This document shows, one piece after another, positions 44,575 to 64,000 of a DNA stretch of 64,000 bases; position 1 is the stretch's first letter, and every line of letters starts with the position of its first letter. Made by a program: the position numbers and the translations under genes. The stretch is from assembly GCF_003032475.1 (NCBI RefSeq), contig NZ_CP028369.1, positions 6,696,001-6,760,000 on the forward strand, in the 5' to 3' direction. The stretch comes from Streptomyces sp. P3 (lineage in GTDB: Bacteria; Actinomycetota; Actinomycetes; Streptomycetales; Streptomycetaceae). The notes below the pieces were generated by a model. It saw only the letters and a program-made list of their open reading frames with translations. It did not search any database and was not told where the DNA came from.

Positions 44575-44830
44575 GGCCCTGACGGCGGAGGCGGTGTCCG
44601 AGGGATCCCCGAGCCGTTGCTGAGCACGGGGTGAGACTCAGAGAACTCGCAGATCACACACAGCGGAAGCGCTCTCACGTGTTTTCCCGGGACCTGACTG
44701 CCGGGTGCCGAGCCCTGCCGCCTCGAAAAAACGTCTGAAACAGAGGCGGACTAGACTCTCCCCGCAATGACCTGAACTCGTGTGGTCGAGTACGGGCGGA
44801 AACGGCCAGACCCGAAGGGTGTTCGGCGTT
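44575..44830. promoter_or_regulatory. Upstream region of the betaine-type importer
   Basis: No gene seen. It contains TAGACT at 44752-44757, a good -10 hexamer for the importer operon, and an A/T-richer stretch with GAAAAAACGTCTGAAA just before it. No clear -35 at the standard distance. Confidence 0.35.
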
Positions 44831-46695: not shown

Positions 46696-47360
46696 ACGTA
46701 CTGAACTTCGTCAACGCCTTCTTCGGCGACGGTGCCCACTGGCACGGTTACGACGGCATCCCCACCCGGCTGCTGGAGCACCTGCAGTACTCGCTCGAGG
46801 CGCTCGCCCTCGCCGCCCTCATCGGACTGCCGGTCGGACTCCTCACCGGCCACTACGGCAAGGGCGGCAACACCCTCACCCTGATCGCCACCGCGGGCCG
46901 GGCGCTGCCCACCTTCGGTCTGCTGGTGCTCATCACCCTCAGCACCGGCTTCGGCATGATGCCGGTGATGATCCCGCTGGTCGTCCTCGCCGTTCCGCCG
47001 ATCCTGGTCACCACCTACGAGGCGGTGCGCTCCGTCGACCCGTCCCCGGTGGACGCGGCGCGGGGCATCGGCATGGCCGAACGGCGCATCCTGCTCCAGG
47101 TGGAGCTGCCCGTCGCGCTGCCGCTCATCCTCGGCGGACTGCGCTCGGCGGCCATCCAGATCGTGTCCACCGCCACCATCGCCGCGTACGTGGGCCTCGG
47201 CGGACTCGGCCGCTTCATCGTGGACGGCCTCTACCAGCACGACTACGAGAAGGTCGTCGGCGGCGCCACCCTGGTCGCCGGTATGGCCCTCGCGACCCTG
47301 GGCGTCTTCTGGGCCCTCGCCCGCGCGACGGTCTCGCCGGGGGTGCGGCGCGCCCACTGA
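46692..47360 (+). CDS. OpuC-type permease, second subunit
   Basis: A 222-residue permease: segments such as YSLEALALAALIGLPVGLL and the loop SVDPSPVDAARGIGMAERRI. Starts with GTG overlapping the previous stop. The importer genes stop here: immediately after the TGA at 47360 the sequence AGCGTGTTGCGGAAAGC looks like an insertion-sequence end, and the binding-protein gene expected next is found only at 53508. Confidence 0.9.
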   Translation: MNVLNFVNAFFGDGAHWHGYDGIPTRLLEHLQYSLEALALAALIGLPVGLLTGHYGKGGNTLTLIATAGRALPTFGLLVLITLSTGFGMMPVMIPLVVLAVPPILVTTYEAVRSVDPSPVDAARGIGMAERRILLQVELPVALPLILGGLRSAAIQIVSTATIAAYVGLGGLGRFIVDGLYQHDYEKVVGGATLVAGMALATLGVFWALARATVSPGVRRAH

Positions 47361-48531: not shown

Positions 48532-49131
48532 TCAGCCCTCGGAGCGGGCCAGCGCCTGTTCCAGGACGACGAGCAGGGCGTCGCGGACCGAGCCGCGCTC
48601 GCGGGCGTCGAAGACGAGCAGCGGCACGCCGTCCGACACGTCGAGGGCCCAGCGGACCTCGTCCAGCGTGTGCGCCAGCTGGCCGTCGAATGCGTTCACG
48701 GCCACGGCGAACGGGATCCGCTTGTGCTCGAAGTAGTCGACTGCGGCGTAACAGTCGTCGAGGCGGCGGGTGTCGACGATGACGAGCCCGCCGATCGCGC
48801 CCTCCACGATGTCGTCCCACATGAACCCGAACCGCTCCTGTCCGGGCGTGCCGAACAGGTACAGCTTGAGCGTCGGGTCGATGGTGATGCAGCCGAAGTC
48901 CATCGCCACCGTGGTGGTGGTCTTGCGCGGGGTGTGGCTGAGGTCGTCCACACCCGCCGCGACCTCGGTGATGGCCGCCTCGGTGGTCAGCGGCTCGATC
49001 TCGGAGATCGAGCCGACCGCGGTGGTCTTGCCCACGCCGAAGCCGCCCGCGATCACCAGTTTCACCGGCAGCGGCGGTCGCACGGCGGCCTGTCCGGCCG
49101 AGGCGCGGACCAGCGGTTCAGTCGGTGTCAC
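48532..49131 (-). CDS. cvnD: Conservon GTPase (CvnD), first cluster
   Basis: A 199-residue Rab/Arf-like small GTPase. P-loop GGFGVGKTT, switch region with KTTTTVAMDFGCITID, DTxG-equivalent LFGTPGQERFGFMW, and the base-recognition region FAVAVNAFDGQ, where NAFD replaces NKxD. GTG start at 49131 lies inside the end of cvnC, a 14-bp overlap. In conservons the GTPase forms a membrane-associated complex with CvnA-C that resembles eukaryotic G-protein signalling. Last gene of the operon; no cvnE P450 follows. Confidence 0.93.
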   Translation of the reverse strand: MTPTEPLVRASAGQAAVRPPLPVKLVIAGGFGVGKTTAVGSISEIEPLTTEAAITEVAAGVDDLSHTPRKTTTTVAMDFGCITIDPTLKLYLFGTPGQERFGFMWDDIVEGAIGGLVIVDTRRLDDCYAAVDYFEHKRIPFAVAVNAFDGQLAHTLDEVRWALDVSDGVPLLVFDARERGSVRDALLVVLEQALARSEG

Positions 49132-49561
49132 GGAATACCCCCCGGGAGTCGGGGATGGCCCGCAGGCCATCGATAACCCTGCGCAGTACGGACGCGTCGT
49201 GGGTGACGCCGGAGTCGGGAACGTGCACCGACAGCTGCCCCGCCGCCCGCAGGTCCTCGGCGAGGACCCGCACCACGTTCAGATGCAGCCGCAGCCGCGC
49301 CGCGATCTCCGCGATGGACTGCGGCACGCGGCAGGCGGCGACGATGTCGTGCTGCTCGAAGGAGAGCCGGTGCAGCGCGCCGAGCCCGTCGGCCGTGGCG
49401 ACCAGCTGGGTCTCCACGGGCATCGTCCGGCCGGACGACGCCTCGCCCGGGCCGCCCGCGACCCGTCCGGCGGTGACGAGGAAGGGCCGGACGGCGGGCG
49501 CGGGCCCGACGGGGGCGACGCCGTCCTCGCCGGCCCCGCGCGGGGTGCGGCCGTCCGCCAT
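49118..49561 (-). CDS. cvnC: Conservon DUF742 protein (CvnC), first cluster
   Basis: A 147-residue DUF742 protein with the family winged-helix-like core: VRPFLVTAGR, HDIVAACRVPQSIAEIAARL, RLHLNVVRVLAEDLRAAGQL. It is thought to contact CvnA/CvnD. ATG at 49561, 31 bp after cvnB, and its end overlaps cvnD by 14 bp, so translation of the two is coupled. Confidence 0.92.
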   Translation of the reverse strand: MADGRTPRGAGEDGVAPVGPAPAVRPFLVTAGRVAGGPGEASSGRTMPVETQLVATADGLGALHRLSFEQHDIVAACRVPQSIAEIAARLRLHLNVVRVLAEDLRAAGQLSVHVPDSGVTHDASVLRRVIDGLRAIPDSRGVFRDTD

Positions 49562-49592
49562 CGGTGTTCGCTTTCTCTGCGGTGGCTCGCGG

Positions 49593-50069
49593 TCAGCGCG
49601 GCCGTGTGACGCCGACGCTGTTCTTCAGCTCCAGGACGAGTTGGGGACTGAGCGCGCTGCCGGCGCGGTTGGCGAACACCGTCATCTCGTAGGCGATGTT
49701 GCCCAGTTTGGCCTCCTTGTCGGTGACCACGCCGAGCACGGCGCCGCTGCCGATCGCGGAGACCAGCACGTGACCGCCCTCCAGATCGATGATGACCTTG
49801 TTCAGGCCGCCCAGACCGTAGTTGCCGGAGGCGCCCGCCGCCAGGCTGGTGATGCCCGACACGATCGCGGCCAGCCGCTCGGAGTCGGCGTGCTCGCGCA
49901 GCTCCGACACGGCGATCAGCAGTCCGTCGGAGGACACCGCGATGGCGTCCACGACCCCTGCGGTCTCGGTGGCGAAACGGCTGAGCAGCCAGGTGAAGTC
50001 GGCTGCGGCGGCCCGCAGATCGGTCGGCGTGGCGTCTCCGGCGGGAGTCTCACCTGTCGACGTGCTCAC
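49593..50069 (-). CDS. cvnB: Conservon roadblock/LC7 protein (CvnB), first cluster
   Basis: A 158-residue roadblock/LC7 protein (FTWLLSRFATETAGVVDAIA, VSSDGLLIAVSE, GGHVLVSAIGSGAVLGVV), expected to dimerise and bind the GTPase as a regulator. GTG at 50069 overlaps the stop of cvnA (GTGA). The C-terminal 15 residues are short and basic. Confidence 0.93.
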   Translation of the reverse strand: MSTSTGETPAGDATPTDLRAAAADFTWLLSRFATETAGVVDAIAVSSDGLLIAVSELREHADSERLAAIVSGITSLAAGASGNYGLGGLNKVIIDLEGGHVLVSAIGSGAVLGVVTDKEAKLGNIAYEMTVFANRAGSALSPQLVLELKNSVGVTRPR

Positions 50070-53000
50070 TGCTCGGCTCCTTCCGGAAGGTGGTTCTGGT
50101 GGTGCGTGCGGTCCCGGCCCGACGAGTCGGACGTCGCTGTCCGGTCGGTCCGGTCGGCCCCGTCGGGGTCACCGTCGGGACGGTGGTCGCGTCCGTGGTC
50201 GCTGCGGCCGTCGTCCCCGCGTGCGCCGCGGTGAGCGGCCGGGTCGGCGGGCAGCGGGTGTTCACCGGTGTCGCGGTGCGCGCGGGCCACGGCGGCCTCG
50301 AACTCCTCCAGCGCACTGCGTACGGCGTCCGCGTCGGCGGGGCGGGCGGCCTGCCTCGCCGTCCGCTGCGCGGCGGTGTCGGCGTCCGTGCGCAGTGTGG
50401 CGCCGCGCACGCGACGCCGCAGGGGCCGGGCGGCGTCGGCCTCGCCGGCAGAGGCGGGCGTGGACGAGCCGGCGCCTTGCGGCCCACCAGGCAGGCGGGC
50501 AGGCAGCGGGGACGACGTCGAAGCCGATGCCGATGCCGATGCCGAAGCCGATGCCGATGCCGATGCCGGCCTCGGCTCGGGCGAGTGGGCCGCCGGAGTG
50601 TTCTTCGCCGTGGTGGTGGCCGGGCGTTCCGCCGACGGGGCGGGTGCCTGCGGCTCCGCCTCGGCGCGGGTGCGCGGTGTGCGCTCGGCCGTGCGGGGCG
50701 CGGGGATGCCCGGCCCTCCGACGTGGGTGGGCGGCTCGGCCTCGGGCGCGCGGGAGCGCACGGCTGGAGACGCGCCGGAAGCGGCTCCTCCCGGCTCGTA
50801 CCCCGTGCCCGGGGTGGCGGCGGAGGCGGAGCCGGTCGTGCGGTCCTCGGCAACGGCGTCGGCGACGGCGTCGGCGGGGCTGCCTGCCGGGCCGGACGGA
50901 GATCCGGGTTCCCGGTCCGTGGAGGTGCTGCGGGAGTCGTCCGGCTCCGCCGTCGGGGCGGCCTCGCGCCGGGGTATCCGGCGGGGGAGCGCGGCCGGGT
51001 CCTCCTCGCGCGCGGCCCAGGACGGGACGGAGACGGACGGGGACGGTCCCGCCGCGGGAGCCGACGGGGCAGCGGCCCGTCCGGCGGAGGCGGGGGACGC
51101 CGACGGACCCGGGGAGAGGGGCCTGCCCCCCTGGCCGGCCTCGCTCGTCGTCACCAGCAGTGTCGACGGGATCATCACCTCGGCCGTCACACCGCCGCCC
51201 GGGGTGCGGGTGAGGGTGACGTCGACGTCCCGGCGGCGGGCGAGGGCGCCGACCACGAACAGGCCGAGCACCTTCGTCGGCACGAGGTCGAGGCGCTCGC
51301 GGCGCACCAGACGCGCGTTCTCCTCGGCGAGGCGCTCCGCGCTCATGCCCAGGCCGTGGTCGGAGACGGTGACCGACGCGCCGTCGTCGTCGGAGCCGAC
51401 CACCACCTCGACGGGGCTGTCCTCGGGCGAGAATGACACGGCGTTCTCCAGGAGTTCGGCGATCATCAGCGTCAGGTCGCCGATGATGTCGGGCTCCACG
51501 ACGGCCTCGGTCGCCGCGCGCAGCCGGACCCGCTGGAAGCCCTCGATCTGGCCCAGCGCGGCGCGTACGACGTTGGTGAGCGCGGTGGGGCCGGCGTCCA
51601 GGACGGTCTCGCGGATGCCGGCGAGCAGCATCAGGCTGTCGGCGTTGCGGCGCAGCCGGACGGCGATGTGGTCGATGGAGTAGAGGCGTTCGAGCAGCGC
51701 GGGGTCGGTCTCTCCGCGCTCCACCGAGTCGATCAGCGCGAGTTGACGGGTGGTCAGGTTGCTGACGCGCCGGCCGACGTTGCCGAACATCTCGGCGACG
51801 TTGCGCCGGCTCAGCACCTGGCGTTCCAGCAGCGCGGCCGCGGTGGTCTGGACGTTGTTGAAGGCCTCGGCGAGCTCACCGATCTCGTCGTCGGCGGTGA
51901 CCGGCAGTTCGCGCAGCCGTGGGGAGCCGGATTCCTCGGCGTCGTCGTCGGCGACACGGGCGAGCTCGCGGCCCGCGACGTCGGCGACCTCCTGCGCCGC
52001 CCCGGTCAGCGCCAGCACCGGACGGACCACGGAACGGCGGACCAGGACGGAGAGAGTGATCCACAGCGCGAAGCAGCACAGCGCCAGGCTCAGCAGCAGG
52101 ACCGCGCGCCACCGGGCGCTGGAGGCCGCGGAGTCGGCCCGGTCGGCGATCTGGCCGATGAGTGACGCCGTGATCGCGAGCCGGGACCCGGCCTGTGCGC
52201 TGTAGTCGGGGTAGCGGGCGATGGCCGCCCGCAGCGCCGCCCGGATGTCGGCCTTCGACTCGGCCTGCAACGCGCTGGGGTCCACCGCCAGATCGGCGTA
52301 GTGACGGCTGATGGAGGCCTGCGAGATGTTGTGCTCGATGCCGCTGAACTCGTCGGACTGCGCGGGGCTCGCGAACCGCTCGAACCGCGCGGCCTGATAG
52401 GTGAACAACTCGTAGGAGCCGACCGCGCCGGTGAACTCGATGAGCGCGTTGCTGTCACCGGTCCCGGCGGAGAACACGCCGGTCTCGTAGGCGCCGTGGG
52501 CGGCGTCGGCGCGCAGCAGCGAGTCGAGGAGGTTGCCGGTGAAGGTGGAGGCGAGCGCGGAGTTGTGCTCCAGGCCGAGGCCCTCGATGAGGCCGTCGGC
52601 GGCGCCCGAGTACGCGGGGTCGATGTTGTCGGCGGGCAGATAGCCCTGCTGGATGGTCTGCCGCAGTCCGGCCAGCCCCTGGACCTCCCTCAGGGCGCGG
52701 GCCTCGGTGTCCGGCAGCCGGTCGCCGAAGGCGTCGACGACCTTTTGCACCTGCTCGTCGACGGCGGCCTGGGACTGCCGGTAGCTCTCGGCGGAGGGGG
52801 CGTCGACGCCGGAGGCCGCCTCGAACCGCACGGAGAGCAGGATCGCCTGTTGGTGCTCGGCCTGCAGCAGGGCGACGAGTTGCGCGACCTGCGTGCTGTC
52901 GCGGACCAGTCGGGCGGCGTTCGCGGCGCGGTCGGACTCCTGCACCAGGTCGACGACGAGGTACGTCAGCAGCAGGGCGATCACCGCCAGCGGGATGCCG

Positions 53001-53122
53001 ACGAGCACGTTCAGCTTGCGCTGGAAGGGCCATCGGTCGGCGAAGGTCCGCAGGCCCCGGGGCGCGGGCGGCGAGGCCGAGGACGCCGAGCCGGCGGGCG
53101 CGTCCACCTCTTTCGTGGACAC
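50066..53122 (-). CDS. cvnA: Conservon sensor kinase (CvnA) with nitrate/nitrite-sensor-type domain
   Basis: A 1018-residue membrane protein. Membrane segment 1 (LNVLVGIPLAVIALLLTYLV), an extracytoplasmic helical NIT-type sensor (about 60-310), membrane segment 2 (WRAVLLLSLALCCFALWITL), HAMP, and an ATPase domain with ELLENAVSFSPEDSP and DHGLGMS. From about 690 on it is disordered, Pro/Ala/Ser-rich, including an Ala-Ser dipeptide repeat. GTG at 53122 follows GGAGG. The usual phosphoacceptor H-box is not evident, as in other conservon kinases. First gene of cvnABCD. Confidence 0.92.
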   Translation of the reverse strand: MSTKEVDAPAGSASSASPPAPRGLRTFADRWPFQRKLNVLVGIPLAVIALLLTYLVVDLVQESDRAANAARLVRDSTQVAQLVALLQAEHQQAILLSVRFEAASGVDAPSAESYRQSQAAVDEQVQKVVDAFGDRLPDTEARALREVQGLAGLRQTIQQGYLPADNIDPAYSGAADGLIEGLGLEHNSALASTFTGNLLDSLLRADAAHGAYETGVFSAGTGDSNALIEFTGAVGSYELFTYQAARFERFASPAQSDEFSGIEHNISQASISRHYADLAVDPSALQAESKADIRAALRAAIARYPDYSAQAGSRLAITASLIGQIADRADSAASSARWRAVLLLSLALCCFALWITLSVLVRRSVVRPVLALTGAAQEVADVAGRELARVADDDAEESGSPRLRELPVTADDEIGELAEAFNNVQTTAAALLERQVLSRRNVAEMFGNVGRRVSNLTTRQLALIDSVERGETDPALLERLYSIDHIAVRLRRNADSLMLLAGIRETVLDAGPTALTNVVRAALGQIEGFQRVRLRAATEAVVEPDIIGDLTLMIAELLENAVSFSPEDSPVEVVVGSDDDGASVTVSDHGLGMSAERLAEENARLVRRERLDLVPTKVLGLFVVGALARRRDVDVTLTRTPGGGVTAEVMIPSTLLVTTSEAGQGGRPLSPGPSASPASAGRAAAPSAPAAGPSPSVSVPSWAAREEDPAALPRRIPRREAAPTAEPDDSRSTSTDREPGSPSGPAGSPADAVADAVAEDRTTGSASAATPGTGYEPGGAASGASPAVRSRAPEAEPPTHVGGPGIPAPRTAERTPRTRAEAEPQAPAPSAERPATTTAKNTPAAHSPEPRPASASASASASASASASTSSPLPARLPGGPQGAGSSTPASAGEADAARPLRRRVRGATLRTDADTAAQRTARQAARPADADAVRSALEEFEAAVARAHRDTGEHPLPADPAAHRGARGDDGRSDHGRDHRPDGDPDGADRTDRTATSDSSGRDRTHHQNHLPEGAEQ
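50523..50564. repeat. Seven GCCGAT-type hexamers in cvnA
   Basis: Six exact GCCGAT units and one GCCGAA, read on the gene strand as Ala-Ser dipeptides (GCA TCG codons) in the disordered tail. Likely length-variable. Confidence 0.9.
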
Positions 53123-53507
53123 CGGGCCTCCTCCAAGAGGGTGTTGCAGGCGTGCACCGGGGGCATGCGAGCTGTCCGTCTGTTCTGTGCGCGCATGTGT
53201 CCGCACGGCTGTGACACGTTCGGGGTCCCCGTACACCGCTGTGGCCGACGCCCACTGCCGTGGCGAACGTCAACTACGGCGACACTATCGCCCATTCGAA
53301 CGCGCGAGCACGTCGCCCCGCGTCAAGAATCCATTACGAAGGGAGACCTCCCGTGGTGCGCGGGAGGACTTACGGTTCGCATGGCGGCGATCACGGATCG
53401 ACGCCGATCGGTGACCCGGCTGCTCTTGACCGATCGAGAAGCGGATGGATTGGATCGGGAGACAAGTGTTTGAGTTCTCATCAACCCCCCAGCTCGGAAC
53501 GGGAACC
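53123..53507. promoter_or_regulatory. Divergent promoter region of cvnA and the importer binding protein
   Basis: 385 bases with no gene. Its right part contains TTGACC at 53426-53431 and TTGGAT at 53450-53455 (18-bp spacer), a good vegetative-type promoter for the binding-protein gene. The left part should hold the cvnA promoter. This is also where the rejoined importer genes would have met before the insertion, if the split-operon reading is right; no transposon end was found here. Confidence 0.5.
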
Positions 53508-54467
53508 GTGACTTCCAACGCCCACAGCAGCAGGTCCCTGAGGAACCACCCCGGCGCGGCGGCCGTCGCCCTGGCCGCGACGGCGCTCCTGCTGGCGGGA
53601 TGTGGCTCCTCGTCCGGTGACACCGACGACCCGCTCGCCGGCGACAAGGCGGCAGGCGACACGGTGGTCGTCGGCTCCAACAACTTCGCCGAGAGCGTCC
53701 TGCTCGCCGACATCTACGGCGAGGCCCTGAAGGCCAAGGGCGTGAAGGTGTCCTACAAGCCCAACATCGGCAGCCGTGAGACCACGTACGGGCTGCTCAA
53801 GAACGGTTCCATCACCGTCCTGCCGGAGTACAACGGCTCCCTGCTCGCGTATCTGGACAAGGACGCGGCCCAGACCTCGCCGGCGACGGTGAACGCCGCG
53901 GTGAAGACGAAGCTCGACTCCAAGCTGACGCTGCTGGAGTCGTCGCCCGCCGAGGCCAAGGACTCCGTCACGATCAACGCGGAGACCGCGAAGAAGTACG
54001 ACCTCACCTCGACCTCCACGCTCGCCGACCTCAAGGACGCCGCGCCCGAGCTCGTTCTCGGCGGTTCGCCCGAGTTCCAGACCAGGCAGCAGGGCATGGT
54101 CGGACTGGAGTCGGTGTACGGGCTGAAGTTCAAGAACTTCAAGGCGCTCGACGCGGGCGGCCCCCTGACCCAGGCGGCGCTGAAGAAGAACACCGTGCAG
54201 GCCGCGGACATCTTCACCACGGACCCGACCATCACCAGGGAGAAGTTCGTCGTCCTCCAGGACCCGAAGAACCTCTTCGGATTCGCGAACGTGACGCCGC
54301 TCGTCTACAAGAGCGGCCTCTCCCAGGAGGGCATCGAGGCGCTCAACGCCGTATCCGCCAAACTCGACACGAAGACGCTGCTCGACCTGGACTCCCAGGT
54401 GCAGCTGGAGAGCAAGGACCCGCTGGACGTCGCCCGGGCCTGGCTGAAGTCCGCGGGTCTGGACTGA
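53508..54467 (+). CDS. OpuC-type quaternary-amine-binding lipoprotein
   Basis: A 319-residue lipoprotein (signal AAAVALAATALLLAGCG) with an OpuAC-type ligand domain: TVVVGSNNFAESVLLADIYG, NIGSRETTYGLLKNGSITVL, EYNGSLLAYLD, ADIFTTDPTI. It should deliver a quaternary amine to the permeases at 46000-47360, 6 kb upstream on the same strand. GTG at 53508. It has its own promoter candidate. An ammonia-lyase-like gene follows 40 bp downstream and may be cotranscribed. Confidence 0.92.
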   Translation: MTSNAHSSRSLRNHPGAAAVALAATALLLAGCGSSSGDTDDPLAGDKAAGDTVVVGSNNFAESVLLADIYGEALKAKGVKVSYKPNIGSRETTYGLLKNGSITVLPEYNGSLLAYLDKDAAQTSPATVNAAVKTKLDSKLTLLESSPAEAKDSVTINAETAKKYDLTSTSTLADLKDAAPELVLGGSPEFQTRQQGMVGLESVYGLKFKNFKALDAGGPLTQAALKKNTVQAADIFTTDPTITREKFVVLQDPKNLFGFANVTPLVYKSGLSQEGIEALNAVSAKLDTKTLLDLDSQVQLESKDPLDVARAWLKSAGLD

Positions 54468-54507: not shown

Positions 54508-56484
54508 TTGGACACGCCGGCAGACGGAACGGCCCGGGTCGCCCCGCACGGAGAGGGCGCCCGGGTCGTCCTGGACGGAACCGCCCTCACCGTCGGCGAG
54601 CTGATCGCGCTCGCCGACGGCGCGGCCGTGCCCGTGGTGGCCCCCGAGGCCCGGGAGCGGGCCGTGCGCTCCTGGCGGACGGCCCGGCGGCTCGCCGCCG
54701 CCGGGCGGCTGTACGGCCGCGGCACCGGCGTGGGCGCCCAGCGCTCCGTGGCGGTCGACCAGGACGACGAGGTCGCGCACGGACTGCGCCTGCTGCGCAG
54801 CCACGCCGGCGGGGCGGGCGACCTGCTGCCCGGACGTCAGGTCCGGGCGATGCTCGCGATCCGCGCCAACCAACTCCTCGCCGGCGGTTCCGGCATCCAA
54901 CCGGCCTTCGTCGACGCTCTCACCGAGGCCCTGCGGCTTCGCGTCCACCCGGCCGTCAGCGAATACGGCGGTGTCGGCACCGGCGACCTGACGGCGCTGG
55001 CCCAGACGGGTCTCACCCTCCTCGGGGAGCGGCCGTGGGCCGGCGAGGGGCCGGAAGGCACGACCGATCGGCCCGCGGTGCCCGAACTACCACGGCCCGG
55101 GCTGCCTGAACCACCTGCCCTGCCCGGACCGCCCGGACTGCCCGAGGGGCCTGCGGCGCCCGCCGCGCTCGCGGAGCCGGCAGCGCCCGTCGCGGCGATC
55201 GCTTCGGGCGAAGCGGACCGGAGTGTGACCGCCGGCCGCGCCAGGGATGCCGGGGCGCCCACGGAGCCGCCCCGCCGTGTGTCTGTCGCCGTGCACGCCT
55301 CCACGGCTACCGGCGCTCCCACGGCTGGCGCTCCCACCGCTCCCGGCGCTCTCACCGATTCCGGCGCACCCGCCGGGTCCGGCTCCCGCGGCAGGCCCGG
55401 GGCCCGGCTTGCCGACGGTTCTCGACTCGCCGCCGCTCTGGCCGCGTTGCCGGCCCCGCCGTCCGGACCGGCCGACCGCCCCGAGCACGCTCCCGTCGGC
55501 TCCGTGCCGGGCCGGGCCCTCGCGCCGCTCCCCGGCCGCGTCCCGGTCCCCGTCGTCCTGCAGGCCGGGGACGCTCTCGCGCTGCTCAGCAGCAATGCCC
55601 TGGCATTGGCGCAGGCGGCTCTGGCGCAGGGTGAGGTGGGGATGCTCTTGCGGGCCACCCACGCCGTCGCCGCTCTTTCACTCGTCGCGGTGTCCGGGTC
55701 GCCCCAGGCGTACGCGGCGCCGGTGCACGCGCTGCGGCCCTACCCCGGCGCGGCCCACGCGGCAGGCGAGGTACGGCGGCTGCTCGGACTGCCCGGCCGG
55801 CCGCCGCCCGACCCGGGCAGCCGGGTCCAGGACCCCTTCGGGTTCCGCGCCTTCCCCCAGGTGCACGGGTGCGCCCTGGACGCCTGCGAACGACTGCGCG
55901 AGGTCGTAGAGGTGGAGATCAACTGCCCGTCGGAGAATCCCCTCATGGATCCCGACGGCGCGGCGGCCTACCACCACGGCGGGTTCTTCGCCGCTCCGCT
56001 GGGCCTCGCCCTGGACGCGTGCGCACTCGCGCTGCTGCAGACCGCACAGCTCTCCGCGGCCCGCCTGGCCGCGCTCGGCGACCCCGGGCTGACCGGACTG
56101 CCCGCCTTCCTCGGCGCAGGGCCCGCGAGCAGCTCGGGCGCGATGATCCTCGAGTACACCGCCAACTCGGCGCTCGCGGAGCTGCGTTCCTGTGCGATGC
56201 CCGCGTCGGCGGGGCACGCCGTCCTGTCGCGGGGCCTGGAGGAGGCCGCCAGCTTCGCCGGTCAGGCCGCCCGCCAGGCCTTGCGCGCGGCGCACGCCTA
56301 CGCCGTCGTCGTCGCCTGCGAACTCGTCGCATCGGTACGGGCGTTGAGGATGCTGCCGGGGTCGCCGCCGGTCGCCGCCTTCGCGGCGGCGGCGGCCGCC
56401 CTGCCCGCAGGCACGGACGACCGTCCGCTCACCGACGACGTGACGGCGGCCGTCGAACTGCTGCCGCTCCTGGCGCGGTTGTGA
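54508..56484 (+). CDS. Histidine/aromatic ammonia-lyase-like protein lacking the MIO triad
   Basis: A 658-residue member of the HAL/PAL fold. Conserved: YGRGTGVGAQ with Tyr69, SHAGGAGD, ANQLLAGGSGI, QDPFGFRAFPQVHG, ENPLMDP and SSGAMILEYTANSA. The Ala-Ser-Gly that makes the MIO cofactor is replaced: EYGGVGTGDLTAL has Gly157-Thr158-Gly159, one residue shorter than VGASGDL. GGNFH is GGFFA here. A 170-residue Ala/Pro-rich insertion (about 180-350) splits the fold. Start is TTG 54508; no better start was found. The missing triad argues against normal lyase activity, so it may be a non-catalytic or differently reacting homologue. Confidence 0.8.
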   Translation: MDTPADGTARVAPHGEGARVVLDGTALTVGELIALADGAAVPVVAPEARERAVRSWRTARRLAAAGRLYGRGTGVGAQRSVAVDQDDEVAHGLRLLRSHAGGAGDLLPGRQVRAMLAIRANQLLAGGSGIQPAFVDALTEALRLRVHPAVSEYGGVGTGDLTALAQTGLTLLGERPWAGEGPEGTTDRPAVPELPRPGLPEPPALPGPPGLPEGPAAPAALAEPAAPVAAIASGEADRSVTAGRARDAGAPTEPPRRVSVAVHASTATGAPTAGAPTAPGALTDSGAPAGSGSRGRPGARLADGSRLAAALAALPAPPSGPADRPEHAPVGSVPGRALAPLPGRVPVPVVLQAGDALALLSSNALALAQAALAQGEVGMLLRATHAVAALSLVAVSGSPQAYAAPVHALRPYPGAAHAAGEVRRLLGLPGRPPPDPGSRVQDPFGFRAFPQVHGCALDACERLREVVEVEINCPSENPLMDPDGAAAYHHGGFFAAPLGLALDACALALLQTAQLSAARLAALGDPGLTGLPAFLGAGPASSSGAMILEYTANSALAELRSCAMPASAGHAVLSRGLEEAASFAGQAARQALRAAHAYAVVVACELVASVRALRMLPGSPPVAAFAAAAAALPAGTDDRPLTDDVTAAVELLPLLARL

Positions 56485-56506
56485 GGCCGTCGCCGAAGCG
56501 GCCGCC

Positions 56507-57877
56507 TCAGTACCCCACGTAGAACGTCGCGTCCTGCTTCTCCGTCGCCGTCGAGACGGGATCGATGCGCAGGACGTAGTTCGCGTGCCGGATGTACCGG
56601 GTGGGGTTGTTGTACGAGCGGAACGACGACCAGCCGGCGTCCGCCAGCCCCGCCGTCCGGTAGAACGTCGCGTCCCCGGCGAACGTCGACGTGCCGTCGT
56701 TCACGTCGAGTTGGAGTGCGTAGTTGTAGTGCCGCAGGTAGCGGGTCGGGTAGTTCACGGAGCGGAAGGAGACGCCGGAGCTGTCCGCGAGGCCCGGCAC
56801 CAGGGTCCACTGCGAGTCCTTGTACGGCTCGACGGGGTACTCGTCGATCCGGCCGACGTAGTTGGAGTGGCGCACGTAACGGGCCGGGAAGTTGTAGGAC
56901 TTGAGGCGGTTCCAGGCCGGGGCGCCCCACTTCGCCACGAGGTTGTCGTACTGGGTCGAGGTGATCGTCGTGATGCCGCAGTGCTTGGAGTTGACCGGCT
57001 GGGTGTAGGCCTTCTGGTCCAGCGCGGTCCAGGTGCCGGCCGACAGGTCGGAGGACTGCCAGGCGTAGAAGACGCCGTTGGGGGTGTAGGTGTCGCCCCA
57101 CAGGTACCAGGTGCCGGAGGTGAGGGACTTGACCAGGGTCGGGGCCTCCGTGCCGCCGTGGGAGACGGCGGTGCTGAAGGGCGTGAAGCTGCCGGGGTTC
57201 AGGGAGCTGGACCTGGCGCCGAGAAGGGTGCCGTTCTTCTTGAAGTAGAGGTAGTTGACGCCGTTCACGCCGACGGCCATGTCGCCGTCGATCACGTCGT
57301 AGCCGGGGTCGAAGAAGACCTGGGGGGCCGAGACCGTGACGAAGTCGGTGGTGTAGTTGACCATGATGACGTTGTGGCCGCTGCTGTTGACGGCGGAGTA
57401 GATGAGCGCGTACTGGCCGCGGCTCGCGTCCCAGAAGGCCTCCGGCGCCCAGCTGTGGGTGTTCATGTCGTGCAGCTTCAGCCGGTGGTATCCGGTGAAG
57501 GTGCGCAGGTCGGTGGAGTTCCAGACGTGGACGTACTGACTGACGTAGTTCCAGTCCGTCCCCTTGAGGTCGGTGGCGAGCACGACGAAGGTGCCGTCCT
57601 GCTTGCGCAGGATGAACGGGTCGCGCAGGCCGAGCGCGCCCTCGGTGGGGGTGACCACGGGGTTGTTCTGGTTGAGCGGCATCCAGCGCAGCCCGTCCGT
57701 GCTGACCGCCAGATGCAGTCCGTAGTCGGTGCCGTCGCCGAGATTCGTCGACTCGGTGAAATAGGCCATCACGTACGCGGAGTCGGCCGCGTGGGCGGAC
57801 GGGACGCCGAGAGTGAGGGCCAGGGGGACGGAGGCGGCCGCGCCGAGGAAGAGGCGGCGGGACGGGTTGGGGGTCAT
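56507..57877 (-). CDS. Secreted GH43-type glycosidase with AbfB (CBM42) domain
   Basis: A 456-residue exported protein. Tat-like signal SRRLFLGAAASVPLALTLGV then Pro-Ser-Ala-His-Ala. Residues 30-310 are a five-bladed propeller of GH43 type: AYFTESTNLGDGTDYGLHLA, LRDPFIL with the probable base Asp, and SWAPEAFWD with an acid candidate. The C-terminal 140 residues are an arabinose-binding AbfB trefoil with repeated YVRH/YLRH/YIRH (PARYVRHSNY, PTRYLRHYNY, PTRYIRHANY). Likely attacks arabinan or arabinoxylan side chains outside the cell. ATG at 57877 with GGAG six bases before. Convergent with the lyase-like gene, 22 bp apart. Confidence 0.88.
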   Translation of the reverse strand: MTPNPSRRLFLGAAASVPLALTLGVPSAHAADSAYVMAYFTESTNLGDGTDYGLHLAVSTDGLRWMPLNQNNPVVTPTEGALGLRDPFILRKQDGTFVVLATDLKGTDWNYVSQYVHVWNSTDLRTFTGYHRLKLHDMNTHSWAPEAFWDASRGQYALIYSAVNSSGHNVIMVNYTTDFVTVSAPQVFFDPGYDVIDGDMAVGVNGVNYLYFKKNGTLLGARSSSLNPGSFTPFSTAVSHGGTEAPTLVKSLTSGTWYLWGDTYTPNGVFYAWQSSDLSAGTWTALDQKAYTQPVNSKHCGITTITSTQYDNLVAKWGAPAWNRLKSYNFPARYVRHSNYVGRIDEYPVEPYKDSQWTLVPGLADSSGVSFRSVNYPTRYLRHYNYALQLDVNDGTSTFAGDATFYRTAGLADAGWSSFRSYNNPTRYIRHANYVLRIDPVSTATEKQDATFYVGY

Positions 57878-58086
57878 GTGCGCTCCAGGGGGATACAGCG
57901 GGGTGCCCGGATACCACGTCGGTTCGACATTTCGAACCAAGTTCGGTGAGTCGGTCAGAAGGTAGGGGCGCAAGGGGCGCACGTCAATCACTGGGACAGG
58001 CTTGGCGGCTTCCCGCCGCATTCCTGTGTGACGCTCATGAGGAATACCGGCGACGTCTGCGCCGCAGCGGACTAAGGTCGGCGCCC

Positions 58087-58503
58087 GTGAACAGGAGACG
58101 GCGGAAGAAACTGACGAAGCGTCTGGTGTGCGCGGCGAGGTTCGAGGACGGGAAGGGCGTCGGCCGGTTGCTCGAGGCCGGCGCCGACCCGGCGGCGGCC
58201 GACGCCGAGGGGACGACTCCGTTGTACGCGGCCTGCGTCCAGGGCGAAGCCGAGACGGCCCGCAGACTCCTCGAGGCCGGGGCACCGCCCGACGCCGAGA
58301 GCGCCGGCCTCGGCGCCGAGGGAACTCCCCTGTGTGCGGCGGCCTGTTGGGGACACGTCGAAACCGTCCGCGTCCTCCTCGCCCATGGCGCCGACCCCAA
58401 CCGCCGCGAGGACCACGGCACGGGCATGACGCCCCTGCAGTGGGCGGCCGCGGGACCCCACCCGCAGACGATCGCCGTACTGCGCGAGGCCGGAGCCCAC
58501 TGA
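58087..58503 (+). CDS. Ankyrin-repeat protein
   Basis: A 138-residue cytosolic protein consisting of about three to four ankyrin repeats: VGRLLEAGADPAAADAEGTT, PLYAACVQGEAETARRLLEA, PLCAAACWGHVETVRVLLAH, PLQWAAAGPHPQTIAVLREA. A basic N-terminus (NRRRRKKLTKR) precedes them. Expected to bind another protein; none is indicated by the neighbours. GTG at 58087. Confidence 0.88.
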   Translation: MNRRRRKKLTKRLVCAARFEDGKGVGRLLEAGADPAAADAEGTTPLYAACVQGEAETARRLLEAGAPPDAESAGLGAEGTPLCAAACWGHVETVRVLLAHGADPNRREDHGTGMTPLQWAAAGPHPQTIAVLREAGAH

Positions 58504-58561
58504 GCGCGGTGAGCCCGCGGTGAGCCCGTTGAGCACCGAGGGGCGGTGAGGGGCGCCGAGG

Positions 58562-58592
58562 GGCGGCGCGCGCCCGCCGGGCGCGCGCCGCC
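58562..58592. terminator. Bidirectional terminator with 14-bp perfect stem
   Basis: GGCGGCGCGCGCCC and its reverse complement separated by GCC, between the convergent ankyrin gene and the second cvnD. A second short GC-rich element follows near 58610. Confidence 0.8.
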
Positions 58593-58606
58593 GCGGCCGA
58601 GAGGCA

Positions 58607-59212
58607 CTAACCCCGCCGGGCCCCGGCGGTGACATCGTCGATCAGGTGGTCGATCAGCGCGATCAGCACCTCCCGGCACGACTCCCGCTCGCGCGCGTCG
58701 CAGAGCAGCACCGGAACGTGCGCCGGCAGTGCCAGCGACTCCCTGATGTCCTCGATGGGGTAGGGGTGCAGCCCGTGGAAGCCGTTCACCGCGATGACGA
58801 ACGGGATGCCCCGGCGCTCGAAGAAGTCGACGGCGGCGAAACTGCACTCGGGCCGGCGCACGTCGATGAGGACCACCGCCCCGAGCGCACCGATCGCCAG
58901 GTCGTTCCACATGAACCAGAACCGTTGCTGGCCCGGCGTGCCGAAGAGGTACAGCACCAGGTCGTCGCCGATGGTGATGCGCCCGAAGTCGAGGGCCACG
59001 GTGGTGGACCGCTTGGCCTCGATGCCCTTCAAGTCGTCGACGTCCAGGCCGGCGACGGTGAGCGGTTCCTCGGTGCGCAGGGGCACGATCTCGCTGACCG
59101 CCCCGACCATGGTGGTCTTGCCGACGCCGAAGCCGCCGGCGACGAGGATCTTCACGGTGTCCGGCGCCGCCGCCGACCCGCCGACGGGCGCGGCGCTGTC
59201 AGATCCGGCCAA
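58607..59212 (-). CDS. cvnD: Conservon GTPase (CvnD), second cluster
   Basis: A 201-residue small GTPase: P-loop GGFGVGKTT, RSTTVALDFGRITIG, LFGTPGQQRFWFMW, FVIAVNGFHG in the base-recognition position. TTG start at 59212, inside cvnC, giving a 14-bp overlap identical in length to that of the first cluster. Last gene of the operon, followed by a strong terminator. Confidence 0.93.
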   Translation of the reverse strand: MAGSDSAAPVGGSAAAPDTVKILVAGGFGVGKTTMVGAVSEIVPLRTEEPLTVAGLDVDDLKGIEAKRSTTVALDFGRITIGDDLVLYLFGTPGQQRFWFMWNDLAIGALGAVVLIDVRRPECSFAAVDFFERRGIPFVIAVNGFHGLHPYPIEDIRESLALPAHVPVLLCDARERESCREVLIALIDHLIDDVTAGARRG

Positions 59213-59597
59213 GGCCGTCCCTCACTTTCTGCAGCAGGTCCAGGTCCAGGTCCGCGGAACCGGTGACCGAGCGGGGTGCCCGGGCCGTGATCAGGCCGGC
59301 CTCCAGCAGGTCGCAGAGCATGATGACGACCACGCTCACCGGCAGGTCGAGATGGGCCGCGAGCTCCGCCACCGCGACGGGCCGGGCGCACAGCCGCAGG
59401 ATGCGGGCGTACTCCGGCTGCGGCCGCGCCACCCGGGCGGGCGGCGGGTGCACCGCCGTGACCGTCGTGATGAGCGTGAAGTCGGCGCGGCTGGGCCGGG
59501 TCCGTCCACCGGTCAGGGCGAACGGTCTGACCAGCCGGCCCGCTTCGTCGCCTCCGCTCACCTCACCCGCCGTGGGTGCGCACGGCGGGACCGACAT
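59199..59597 (-). CDS. cvnC: Conservon DUF742 protein (CvnC), second cluster
   Basis: A 132-residue DUF742 protein: VRPFALTGGR, YARILRLCARPVAVAELAAH, LDLPVSVVVIMLCDLLEAGL. ATG at 59597 lies within the end of cvnB (35-bp overlap), and its own end overlaps cvnD by 14 bp. Confidence 0.92.
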   Translation of the reverse strand: MSVPPCAPTAGEVSGGDEAGRLVRPFALTGGRTRPSRADFTLITTVTAVHPPPARVARPQPEYARILRLCARPVAVAELAAHLDLPVSVVVIMLCDLLEAGLITARAPRSVTGSADLDLDLLQKVRDGLGRI

Positions 59598-60012
59598 GGG
59601 CCCGCGGCGCCGCGCTGAGGTGCTCGCCGATCTTCTTCACCAGCATGTTCATCTGGTACGCCACCACGCCGACGTCCGCGTTCTTGCCGGCCAGTACCAC
59701 GAGATGGGCGCCCGGACCGGCCGAGGTCAGGATCAGGTAGGTGTGGGCCATCTCGATGAGGGCCTGGCGCACCGGGCCGCCCCGGAAGTCCATGCTGACG
59801 CCCTTGCTGAGGCTCATCAGCCCGGACGCCGTCGCCGCCAGCCGTTCGGCGTCCTCGCGCAGGAAGCCGGTGGACTTGCTGACCACCAGTCCGTCCTCGG
59901 AGAGGACCACGGCCTGGTTGACGTCGGCGACGCGGTCCACGAGACCGGTGAGCAACTGGTCGAGCTGGCTGTTCGTGCCGGGGAGGGAGGGTGTCATGGC
60001 GGTGTCCTTCAT
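59563..60012 (-). CDS. cvnB: Conservon roadblock/LC7 protein (CvnB), second cluster
   Basis: A 149-residue roadblock/LC7 protein (LDQLLTGLVDRVADVNQAVV, LSEDGLVVSKS, VVLAGKNADVGVVAYQMNML). ATG at 60012 overlaps the cvnA stop (ATGA); ATG 59997 is an alternative. Overlaps cvnC by 35 bp. Confidence 0.93.
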   Translation of the reverse strand: MKDTAMTPSLPGTNSQLDQLLTGLVDRVADVNQAVVLSEDGLVVSKSTGFLREDAERLAATASGLMSLSKGVSMDFRGGPVRQALIEMAHTYLILTSAGPGAHLVVLAGKNADVGVVAYQMNMLVKKIGEHLSAAPRAHVGPAVRTHGG

Positions 60013-62828
60013 GAGCGGTCGGCGGGCGGGGTCGGGTTCTTGGCGGCGCCCGCGGCGGTCACCGGCGGGCCGGGGGTCTCCTCGGCGGTCGTCTTCCGAG
60101 GATCGGACGGCGGCCGGCCGGCGTCGGCGTGCGCCCGCAGCGTGCCGCGCTGGAATCCGGCGAGGGACGACGCGGCGCGCTCTGCGGTGAAGTCGTCCGG
60201 GACACGGTCGTCCTCGACGGTGTCGGCGCACGACGCGTCCTCGCGCAGTTCGTCCGCGAGGCTGGTCTGCGGGATCCGGCGCGGCAGCGGGGTGAGGCCG
60301 CCGGGGCGGGAGCCGGCGGCGGGCGCGCCGGCCGCGCCGGCGGAAGGTTCGTGCGCCCGGCCGGAGGTGTTGCGGACCGGCAGGGGGGACGGGGTCCGGT
60401 CTCCGGGCCGGCCGTCGTCCCGGCTGCGGTCCCGGTCCGGGGCGACGCGGTTGGGGTTCCCGCCGTGGCCGTCCCGCTCCGGGTCCTGGCCGGGAACGGG
60501 GGACGCGTCCTCGTCGGGCCGGGGCCGGCCGTGCCCGTTCTCCCCGCCGGACACGCTCCGCGCTCCCTTCGGGGACTCGTCCGCGGCAGCGAGGCCCTCG
60601 CGCGGCACACCGGGGCCGCCGTGCGCCGCAGGGGGAGCCGTGCGCGCCGCGTGGGGGGAGTGCGCCGGCTCCCCGCCGACGGCTTCCCGCGCGTCGTCGT
60701 GCCCCTCGCGCGCCGGGCCCGGCGCACCCTGCCCCGGGGGCGGGTCGTCGGCCTCTCCCCGGCCGGCGCCGGCCTCCGTCTCCGCTTCCGCCTCCGCCTC
60801 CGATTCCGTCGCAGTCGCAGTCGCAGCCTCGGCCACGGGTCCGGCGGACGTCGCCGCGCGGGAGATCCCGACAGCCGGGTCCTCGGGGTCCGGGGACTCG
60901 CGGACCACGACCTCGTGCGGCAGCAGCACGATCGCGGTGGTGCCGCCGTACGGCGAGGAGCGCAGGGTCACGCCGATGCCGTGCCGGGTCGCCAGCCGGG
61001 CGATCACGAACATGCCCAGCCGCAGGTCGTCGGCGAGCGCCACCACGTCGAACTGGGGAGGGACCGCCAGTTGCGCGTTGAACGAGGCGTAGTCCTCCGC
61101 CGACATGCCCAGGCCGCGGTCCTCGACCTCGATCGCGAGCCCCCTGGCGACCAGTGTGGCCCGCACCCCGACCGGGCCGGGCGCCGGCGAGTAGGAGGTC
61201 GCGTTGTCGATGAGCTCGGCGAGCAGATGGATGACGTCCGCCACGGCGGGCGGCGCGATGCACACCTCCTCCTCCGTGTGCACCTCCACCCGCCGGTACT
61301 CGGCGACCTCCCCGACGGCGCTGCGCAGGATGTCGGTGAGCGCCACCGGCTCCGACCAGCTGCGCCCGGGCCGGCCGCCACTGATGATGACGAGGTTCTC
61401 CTCGTAGCGGCGCAACTGGCTCGCCGTGGAGTCCAGTTCGTACAGACCGGCGAGGACGTCCGGGTCCTGGTGCCGGCGCTCCAGTGCGTCGAGCTTGCTG
61501 AGCTGGAGGTTGACCAGGTTCTGGCTCTGCCGGGCGATACCGAGGATGACCTTCTCGAAGCCGCGCCGGGTGTCGGCGAGTTCCACCGCGGTGAGCACGG
61601 CGGTGCGCTGCGCCGTGTTGAACGCCTTGGCCACCTGGCCGAGTTCGTCGCCACCGTAGTCCAGTGGCGGGGTCTCGGCGTCCACGTCGACGGTCTCCCC
61701 GCGGTCCAGCCGGGCCACCACGTCCGGCAGCCGCTCGTGCGCCAGACTCAGCGTGGCCATGCGCAGTCCGCGCAGCCGCCGGGACAGCGACCGGGTGATC
61801 CGCCACGACATGCCGACGCACAGCAGCAGGGCGACGAGACCGCCGGCGCTCAGCGAGGCGGCGGTGAGGAGCAGCCCGTGCGCTTCGTCCGCGCTGCGCT
61901 GCAGCAGGTGCGCGGTCTGCTGCCGGATCAGCTTCTCGTACGCGTCGGAGACGTCGATCAGGGCGGCGCGCCACTCCTTCTGCACGTCCGGCAGCGCGAT
62001 CTGGCCGTTCTCGCCCTGCTTCGTCCGGGCAGCGAGCACCTTGTCCTCGACGGCCTCCAGTGTCTGCCACTGGTAACTCGTCAGGATCTCCTCGGTCTGC
62101 GCCTTCGCGGCGCCGGTCAGCGAGGGCACGATCTGGTCCTGCACCAGCCAGCGCCGGCTGTTCACCAGCTGTGCGAACTCGGCCCACGCCTTGTCGTCCA
62201 TCCGCCCCGCGGGCCCGGCCAGCGTCAGGTTCAGGTCCTCCTCGGAGACCAGCTCGGCCGCGTGTTCGAGGGCGATGAGCGGGCCGGCCTGCGAGGTGAG
62301 GTCGCCGTCGTCGACCTGGGACAGCTCCTGGAAGGCGTGGATCTGGTCGTCGATGATCGAGGTGTACTGGTCCAGTGCCTGTGCGGCGGTGATGTCGACC
62401 GGGGCGTCCACCTGACCACGGTAGTACTCGAGGCTGCTCACCGAGGCGACGACCGAGTAAAGCCGGTCCCGGACGCGGGCGGGCGCCCGCTGGATGTCGT
62501 CCGCGTGCGCGACCAGTTTGGCGACCGCCACGTCCGTCTTCGCGCGCTGGGCCTCCAGCGCGGGCCGGGAACCCGCGGGCCGCGAGGTCAGCCACACCGC
62601 CGACAGGCTGCGTTCCCGCTGCAGGGCGAGCGTCGCCTCGGTGCCCATGGCGCCGGTGGAGCGGCTCAGTTCGGTCTGCTCGCGCAGCCGCAGTCCCTCC
62701 GAGAACATCTGTGTCGTCGTCACACCCCACATGGCGGCCAGGGTGACGCTGGGCACCAGTGCGAGAAGGAACAGTGAGAGACGTATGGAGCCGAGACGGC
62801 GGCGCCGGGCACCTGTCCGTGGAGACAT
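60009..62828 (-). CDS. cvnA: Conservon sensor kinase (CvnA), second cluster
   Basis: A 939-residue sensor: membrane segment 1 (IRLSLFLLALVPSVTLAAMW), extracytoplasmic helical NIT-type domain (about 45-300; TLALQRERSLSAVWLTSRPA), membrane segment 2 (LLLTAASLSAGGLVALLLCV), HAMP, then an ATPase domain with LLAELIDNATSYSPAPGP and DRGLGMSAEDY, then a long disordered Pro/Ala/Glu tail with an (Glu/Ala) repeat. ATG at 62828. It lies 47 bp after the binding-lipoprotein gene in the same direction, so both are probably cotranscribed. Confidence 0.92.
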   Translation of the reverse strand: MSPRTGARRRRLGSIRLSLFLLALVPSVTLAAMWGVTTTQMFSEGLRLREQTELSRSTGAMGTEATLALQRERSLSAVWLTSRPAGSRPALEAQRAKTDVAVAKLVAHADDIQRAPARVRDRLYSVVASVSSLEYYRGQVDAPVDITAAQALDQYTSIIDDQIHAFQELSQVDDGDLTSQAGPLIALEHAAELVSEEDLNLTLAGPAGRMDDKAWAEFAQLVNSRRWLVQDQIVPSLTGAAKAQTEEILTSYQWQTLEAVEDKVLAARTKQGENGQIALPDVQKEWRAALIDVSDAYEKLIRQQTAHLLQRSADEAHGLLLTAASLSAGGLVALLLCVGMSWRITRSLSRRLRGLRMATLSLAHERLPDVVARLDRGETVDVDAETPPLDYGGDELGQVAKAFNTAQRTAVLTAVELADTRRGFEKVILGIARQSQNLVNLQLSKLDALERRHQDPDVLAGLYELDSTASQLRRYEENLVIISGGRPGRSWSEPVALTDILRSAVGEVAEYRRVEVHTEEEVCIAPPAVADVIHLLAELIDNATSYSPAPGPVGVRATLVARGLAIEVEDRGLGMSAEDYASFNAQLAVPPQFDVVALADDLRLGMFVIARLATRHGIGVTLRSSPYGGTTAIVLLPHEVVVRESPDPEDPAVGISRAATSAGPVAEAATATATESEAEAEAETEAGAGRGEADDPPPGQGAPGPAREGHDDAREAVGGEPAHSPHAARTAPPAAHGGPGVPREGLAAADESPKGARSVSGGENGHGRPRPDEDASPVPGQDPERDGHGGNPNRVAPDRDRSRDDGRPGDRTPSPLPVRNTSGRAHEPSAGAAGAPAAGSRPGGLTPLPRRIPQTSLADELREDASCADTVEDDRVPDDFTAERAASSLAGFQRGTLRAHADAGRPPSDPRKTTAEETPGPPVTAAGAAKNPTPPADRS

Positions 62829-62875
62829 AGTCGTCCTAGGGCGATCAGCGGGGGGAGGGGGCGGTCGAAGACGGG

Positions 62876-63883
62876 TCAGCGGGTTCCTGCGGCGGCCAGG
62901 CGGGCGACGTCGGAGACGTTGGTCTTCGTGACGAAGGCCGGGCCGGTCAGCACGGGCGCGACGCCGCCGCCGCTGACGTTGCCGTTGGTCCTGTGGAGCC
63001 ACAGCCCGTCCACGGCCAGATACCCCTGCAGGTAGGGCTGTTGGTCCACCGCGAACTGCACGTGACCGTCGCGGACGGCGGTGACCAGGTCCTTGTCGAG
63101 GTCGAAGGTGGCGACCTCGGCCTTGCTGCCGGCCTCGTCGGCCGCCCGCACCGCGGCGAGCGCGAACTGCGCGCCGAGGGTGATGATCTCGTCGATGTCG
63201 GGGTCCTGCCGCAGCCGGGTCGTCAGCGCGGCGGTCGTGGCGTCCATGTCCGTCCCGTCGACGTAGAGCATCCGGGTCTCACCGTCGAAGGTCTTCTTCA
63301 CGCCCGCGCAGCGCGCCTCCAGCGCGACGTTTCCCTGCTCGTGGATGACGCACAGGGCGTGTCTCACCCGCAGGGCGTCGAGCTTGTCGCCGACGGCGCG
63401 GCCCGCCACGCTCTCGTCCTGGCCGAAGTACTCCAGGAGCCCCAGCGAACGCCAGGCGTCGATACCGGAGTTGAGGCCGACGACAGGTATGCCCGCCGCC
63501 TTGGCCTCGGCCACCGGACTCCTCATGGCCTGCGGTTTGGCCAGGGTCACGGCGATGCCGTCGACGTGCTCGCGGATCGCCTCCCGCACCAGTTCGGCCT
63601 GTCCGGCGGGGTCGGAGTCGCTGGTGTAGGTCAGATCGACGCCGTCCTTGGCGGCCGCCGCCTGCGCCCCCCTGCGCACCAGCTCCCAGAAGGGATCCTT
63701 CGCGGCGCCGTGGGTGACCAGGGCGACCTTGAGCCGGCCACTCGCGCCGGCCGCCCCGTCCGCGCCGGACGATGCGGCGCCGGTGCAGCCGGCGAGCAGG
63801 AGGCAGCAGGCCGCGGCGAGGGCGGCCAGACGCAGGGTTGCGCCGGGACACGGACCGGCGGGAGCGGGGACGGGAGTGTTCAT
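62876..63883 (-). CDS. RbsB-type sugar-binding lipoprotein, orphan, upstream of the second conservon
   Basis: A 335-residue lipoprotein (lipobox LLLAGCT) with a type I periplasmic-binding fold of the ribose/LacI-like cluster: LKVALVTHGAAKDPFWELVR, GIAVTLAKPQAMRSPVAEAK, GIPVVGLNSGIDAW, IDEIITLGAQFALAAVRAAD, QFAVDQQPYLQGYLAVDGLW. No permease or ATPase genes are adjacent; the next gene downstream (47 bp) is the conservon sensor kinase. A role as ligand receptor for that kinase is therefore suggested rather than transport. ATG at 63883 with GAGGTG upstream at long spacing. The gene is complete. Confidence 0.88.
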   Translation of the reverse strand: MNTPVPAPAGPCPGATLRLAALAAACCLLLAGCTGAASSGADGAAGASGRLKVALVTHGAAKDPFWELVRRGAQAAAAKDGVDLTYTSDSDPAGQAELVREAIREHVDGIAVTLAKPQAMRSPVAEAKAAGIPVVGLNSGIDAWRSLGLLEYFGQDESVAGRAVGDKLDALRVRHALCVIHEQGNVALEARCAGVKKTFDGETRMLYVDGTDMDATTAALTTRLRQDPDIDEIITLGAQFALAAVRAADEAGSKAEVATFDLDKDLVTAVRDGHVQFAVDQQPYLQGYLAVDGLWLHRTNGNVSGGGVAPVLTGPAFVTKTNVSDVARLAAAGTR

Positions 63884-64000
63884 GGGGGGCTGCACCTCGC
63901 TGGGCGGCAGAGCAGGAGGACGGGGCGAGCGCCGCCGGAACGCAGGGGTGTGCACCGGCGGAGGACGTGCGTTGGCTCGGAGCCAACCGCGTGTGACCAC

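Follow-up and report, generated by a model that had tools for sequence, protein, structure and literature searches.

An orphan inositol-type solute-binding lipoprotein linked to a Streptomyces conservon: a proposed extracytoplasmic co-receptor

Introduction

The systems nearest in presumed working mode to the one described here are XylFII-LytS of Clostridium beijerinckii, TorT-TorS, and GlnH-GlnX-PknG of Corynebacterium and Mycobacterium. In systems of the XylFII-LytS and TorT-TorS type an orphan solute-binding protein (SBP) is stably adjacent to a sensor kinase, and in the GlnH system an actinobacterial lipoprotein SBP shares an operon with a helical signalling protein of the membrane (passages of PMC9769921). 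Conservons, which share a cvnA-B-C-D core, have two described accessories, CvnE (P450) and CvnF (GAF), which according to passages of PMC13343842 overwhelmingly accompany CvnA proteins lacking sensory domains. The same passages state that CvnF8 stimulates CvnA8, that CvnF is speculated to allow the sensing of cytosolic ligands, and that how conservon kinases are driven is largely unexplored. Here we analyse a stretch of 64,000 nucleotides from Streptomyces sp. P3 (the window; 6696001-6760000 of a single-contig genome of 9.85 Mb), in which an orphan RbsB/inositol-type lipoprotein gene directly precedes a complete conservon.

We propose that this lipoprotein is an SBP recruited once in Streptomyces as the dedicated extracytoplasmic ligand-binding co-receptor of one conservon, with an inositol-like ligand, and we give this reading a probability of roughly 0.57. 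An SBP related to those of inositol-type ATP-binding cassette (ABC) importers would have become a subunit of the conservon, with transport as the ancestral form. Lipid-anchored beside CvnA, it would close on a cyclitol of inositol type, such as myo-inositol itself or an inosamine, and would dock on CvnA at the helical NIT domain. Docking may then alter the kinase output of CvnA to CvnB/CvnC and the GTPase CvnD, with the signal presumably running inward from the lipoprotein to the steps downstream. Since the lipoprotein is transporterless and locked gene for gene to the conservon, it is probably the sensor of the outside signal.

The lipoprotein-conservon locus

All genes of the locus lie on the minus strand. 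The lipoprotein gene (62876..63883; 335 aa) encodes an LLLAGC lipobox and a PF13407 domain (8e-40), and a gap of 47 bp with no terminator-like site (62829..62875) separates its stop from the start of cvnA (60009..62828). CvnA is a membrane histidine-kinase-like sensor of 939 aa with Pfam NIT, HAMP and HATPase_c domains; its extracytoplasmic NIT sensor domain (residues 67-308) corresponds to 61905..62630, as computed from the residue numbers, and its C-terminal extension carries LPRR (by eye), which matches the conservon LPxR motif given for the CvnA C-terminus in passages of PMC4316618. It is followed by cvnB (roadblock/LC7, MglB-like; 59563..59997, or, if an earlier start is used, from 60012; Robl_LC7 4.6e-25), cvnC (59199..59597; DUF742 1.8e-36) and cvnD (58607..59212), which encodes a small GTPase (PF03029 3.1e-33) with a P-loop, GGFGVGKTT, in its sequence. 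The conservon is therefore complete, with cvnA-B-C-D in order and each bearing the expected Pfam domain; cvnB overlaps cvnC, and cvnC overlaps cvnD. Neither terminator-like nor sigma-70-like sites were found in a scan of 58300-64000, and PADLOC gave no match to the lipoprotein, CvnA or CvnD.

No inositol-type permease or ATPase was matched in the 20 kb around the lipoprotein gene (E 1e-8). An earlier sequence-only reading had placed an RbsB-type lipoprotein gene without transport partners 47 bp upstream of cvnA-D on the same strand, and that observation is confirmed, with the open reading frames (ORFs) at the positions it gave.

Linkage across genomes

The linkage between the lipoprotein and the conservon is strong. 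In a scan of named species the best 80 of 522 relatives of the lipoprotein gave 80 loci with best-segment identities of 68-84%, fetched with at most 8 kb of flank, and less for several short contigs. CvnA follows the lipoprotein on the same strand in 76 of them, and the contigs of the remaining four (L023, L039, L045, L047) stop 33-125 bp past the match. The gap between the two genes is 39-322 bp in the 76 loci, with a median of 144 (160.5 by another rule); a T5 run is absent from all 76 intergenic regions, and each of the 66 cvnA genes matched from residue 1 onward is preceded by a Shine-Dalgarno-like string, under a loose pattern. Within the available flanks no inositol-type permease, the gene that defines an ABC transport locus, was matched in any of the 80 loci (E 1e-8). 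In some loci an ABC ATPase is weakly matched (26-28%) at about 6-8 kb downstream, which fits the glycine-betaine-type operon at that place.

Because the named set is ranked by similarity, even genome samples were also drawn. In a genus sample of 61 genomes (cut-offs of at least 68% for the lipoprotein and at least 75% for CvnA residues 1-647) the lipoprotein was found in 12 genomes, CvnA in those same 12, and all 12 pairs were adjacent. In an order sample of 147 genomes (at least 69% and at least 73%) both were found in the same 42 genomes, at 69-100% for the lipoprotein and 73-100% for CvnA, and all 42 pairs were adjacent on one strand when the coordinates were compared by eye. At these cut-offs neither sample holds a genome with one gene and not the other, and both identity scores are bimodal, the next CvnA lying at 46% and the next SBP at no more than 63%. 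The two samples overlap in some genomes (e.g. G000, G013, G026).

Carriers in both samples belong to a single genus code, and therefore shared ancestry accounts for much of the linkage; among the named loci L072 is labelled Kitasatospora aureofaciens, and L052 is S. coeruleorubidus ATCC 13740. The informative part of the linkage is that neither gene is lost singly and that the block itself persists although no flanking gene family was found in more than 49 of the 80 loci, as judged from ORFs under a GC (guanine-plus-cytosine) filter on contigs of which some are short. More distant CvnA proteins were represented by 20 hand-chosen rows at 36-46% identity, among them members of three further genera in the order. 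None has a relative of either this SBP or the OpuAC-type SBP described below within 3 kb upstream, a search that covers relatives of these two SBPs and would miss other families (L167 has no upstream ORF under the filter).

Two of the 80 loci show further arrangements. In one, a further set of cvn homologues diverges from the SBP (D-, B-, A-, SBP+, A+, B+, D+); in the other, an additional CvnA does so.

Family, pocket and origin of the lipoprotein

The lipoprotein has the features of a CUT2/RbsB-type SBP, namely the PF13407 fold, the lipobox and a sugar pocket, the last judged by the pocket positions of RbsB; R191 and D261 are among the pocket residues. Its closest solved structure is 4ru1 (ACEI_1806 of Acidothermus), a myo-inositol protein, and its pocket residues are as in 4ru1 at 8 of these 12 positions. 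The structure and the pocket positions together suggest that the ligand is inositol-like.

In the main tree, of 66 rows, which include the window and 16 loci of the named set of 80, all 17 conservon-linked SBPs fall into a single clade (bootstrap 100, Shimodaira-Hasegawa-like approximate likelihood ratio test 99). Inositol-type ABC SBPs are separate (89/87), as is an older ABC group (100/100). The conservon clade has a support of 100 in a quick tree as well, which has 90 rows and draws on 40 loci of the same set. The simplest reading is a single recruitment into the conservon; the root, and hence transport as the ancestral form, is put forward as likely only, because the outgroup 4ru1 sits on a long branch.

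Most of the relatives examined outside this clade adjoin transporter genes. In the genus sample 90 of 102 rows were not of the conservon type, and 42 regions, two of them from the window's own genome, were fetched to cover 48 of the 90. A permease and/or ATPase adjoins the relative in 35 of the 42 regions, unlike the lipoprotein of the window, which has none nearby; an IolC-like gene (at least 70%) is present in 11, including L011, whose own gene was the query, and a cvn match in none. The expectation that such lipoproteins always accompany this cvn type and never permeases holds for the conservon-linked clade (the pair in 42/42, 12/12 and 76/80, and no permease in the flanks of the 80 named loci) and goes no further, because relatives at 46-63% identity usually adjoin permeases.

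The relatives' regions vary in content. Judged by eye from ORF starts, an inositol-type SBP without an adjacent permease lies among LacI-type, IolE-like and MocA-like ORFs in L094, L097, L098 and L100, and one in L101 lies beside a MocA-like ORF; L108 and L132 have such an SBP and neither LacI/IolE nor MocA-like ORFs. In L119-L124 two tandem inositol-type SBP genes precede one permease and ATPase.

The sensor domain of CvnA

The CvnA sensor is a full Pfam match to NIT, and its predicted structure (predicted local distance difference test score of 78.5) is nearly all helical, in agreement with the helical extracytoplasmic sensor of the sequence-only reading. Fold comparison gives NasR as the clear best match and TorS-TorT as a weak second. 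The relation to NasR is known by fold comparison only, as searches of PDB sequences with CvnA and with the sensor alignment gave no NIT relative.

It had further been suggested that the lipoprotein presents a ligand to CvnA as LuxP does to LuxQ and TorT to TorS. This interpretation is partly supported, and we sharpen it to a proposed conservon co-receptor of inositol type with a single origin. An orphan SBP is stably adjacent to a sensor predicted to be helical, as in systems of the TorT-TorS and XylFII-LytS type; the match to TorS-TorT is weak. LuxP-LuxQ was dropped as a model, since the LuxQ sensor has a PAS-type fold and is not helical. XylFII-LytS differs in that LytS, which drives a response regulator, has a single four-helix bundle, whereas CvnA has a larger NIT sensor and a GTPase module. 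GlnH-GlnX-PknG has an SBP from another family, amino-acid ligands and a Ser/Thr kinase as output.

Weighing the co-receptor reading

Several observations weigh against a co-receptor role. Pocket positions 59, 116, 139 and 213 (4 of 12) differ from 4ru1, and under the rule used no position is newly conserved in the conservon-linked clade, so there is no interface signature. The match of the sensor to TorS-TorT is not above that to unrelated helical proteins, and TorS-TorT is absent among the 50 Foldseek rows listed. Between SBP and sensor the share of covarying residue pairs is not raised (0.0038 of pairs, vs 0.0047 for SBP-core and 0.0092 for SBP-CvnB), in a test of low power given 17 effective sequences and only 0.0050 for pairs within the SBP. 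The distance correlation favours direct contact of SBP and sensor but may reflect chromosomal neighbourhood; the SBP-core (0.277) and SBP-CvnC (0.212) correlations also exceed all 2000 permutations. Finally, a permease is absent beside the relative in 7 of the 42 regions, and for this reason orphan status alone proves no signalling role.

These seven regions, five of them with inositol-type metabolic genes, indicate that work in trans may occur in the SBP family. The lipoprotein could accordingly still transport, feeding an inositol ABC permease encoded elsewhere, with the conservon regulating it or merely co-expressed. Its pocket is as in ABC-linked relatives at 11 of 12 positions, and its own genome has two inositol-type ABC loci: the SBPs there are its two nearest paralogues (61% and 57% identical), each adjoining an ABC permease and ATPase and one also an IolC-like kinase. 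We nevertheless consider continued transport unlikely, as neither sample has a genome with one gene alone, the conservon-linked lipoproteins form their own clade, and 13 positions fixed in ABC-linked SBPs are altered or relaxed in them.

A second alternative is that the NIT domain binds a ligand of its own and that the lipoprotein is a second, modulating input, the receptor integrating two signals. The full Pfam match and the closeness of the model to NasR speak for it, and it is unusual for an accessory to accompany a CvnA with a NIT domain, because CvnE and CvnF overwhelmingly accompany CvnA without sensory domains in the passages of PMC13343842. The same passages record that NIT domains without a known ligand exist, and we regard this alternative as distinctly improbable. 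A frozen gene order in which the lipoprotein and CvnA are not functionally coupled, which would fit the single genus code and the largely inherited linkage, is very improbable, given that the block persists where no flanking gene family was found in more than 49 of the 80 loci and that 12 and 42 carriers show no single-gene loss.

A second conservon in the window

The window holds a second conservon, also on the minus strand (48532-53236), with cvnA2 at 50066-53236, cvnB2 at 49593-50069, cvnC2 at 49118-49561 and cvnD2 at 48532-49170. It sits within a glycine-betaine-type ABC operon, between permease 2, in the part of the operon at 44780-47360, and the OpuAC-type SBP gene (53445-54467, plus strand), from which it diverges. 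Orthologs of its CvnA are present in 16 of the 61 genus-sample genomes and, by eye, divergently adjacent to the OpuAC SBP in 13 of these (G045 by a partial match; not in G009, G026 and G055). The split operon is complete in six fetched regions (L137, L147-L151). Of the 80 named loci, 28 have an uninterrupted operon that lacks the second conservon, 10 have the second CvnA after the OpuAC SBP gene, and 44 have the OpuAC SBP gene facing the first conservon's end.

Between the OpuAC SBP gene and cvnD (54508-58503) lie a large ORF resembling a histidine ammonia-lyase relative and an ankyrin-like ORF, both identified by eye, and an arabinofuranosidase-like gene (NCBIfam 73 bits against a cut-off of 500) with a relative in 15 of the 80 loci.

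The genome has 13 DUF742 matches. When lists were compared by eye, no PF13407 match was found within 10 kb of the DUF742 genes of the other 12 conservons, and in their listed surroundings other SBP families were identified only near the second conservon. At about 399-410 kb of the genome (L133/L144) two same-strand conservons lie in tandem, both with a NIT-bearing CvnA.

Since inositol, like glycine betaine, is a compatible solute, one may speculate about an osmolyte theme for the stretch. We tentatively suggest, as a possibility somewhat short of even odds, that the first conservon is the first with a recognisable extracytoplasmic receptor (an inositol-family SBP, and a third accessory class), that the second is a separate capture, and that SBP capture is recurrent, with two compatible-solute-like ligands.

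Significance

No description of an SBP-linked conservon was found in the literature searched, which was covered mostly at listing level and had subscription papers outside its scope. An extracytoplasmic SBP beside a NIT-bearing CvnA does not appear in the passages of PMC13343842, where "lipoprotein" does not occur and "binding protein" occurs twice, and PMC8510531 mentions neither "lipoprotein" nor "substrate-binding". Like CvnE and CvnF conservons, the locus joins the cvnA-B-C-D core to an accessory gene for which an input to CvnA is proposed (PMC13343842, in part). It differs in having as accessory an extracytoplasmic SBP with a lipid anchor, next to a CvnA that retains its NIT domain, a departure from the published pattern of accessories with NIT-less CvnA. 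Most likely the lipoprotein adds a third type to the conservon accessories CvnE and CvnF.

Streptomyces has many conservons, as the 13 DUF742 matches in this genome illustrate, and they act on development (passages of PMC4316618) and specialised metabolism (passages of PMC13343842). In a class whose input signals are mostly unknown, a dedicated SBP whose family includes a protein solved as a myo-inositol structure narrows the ligands to be tested for one conservon to a short list.
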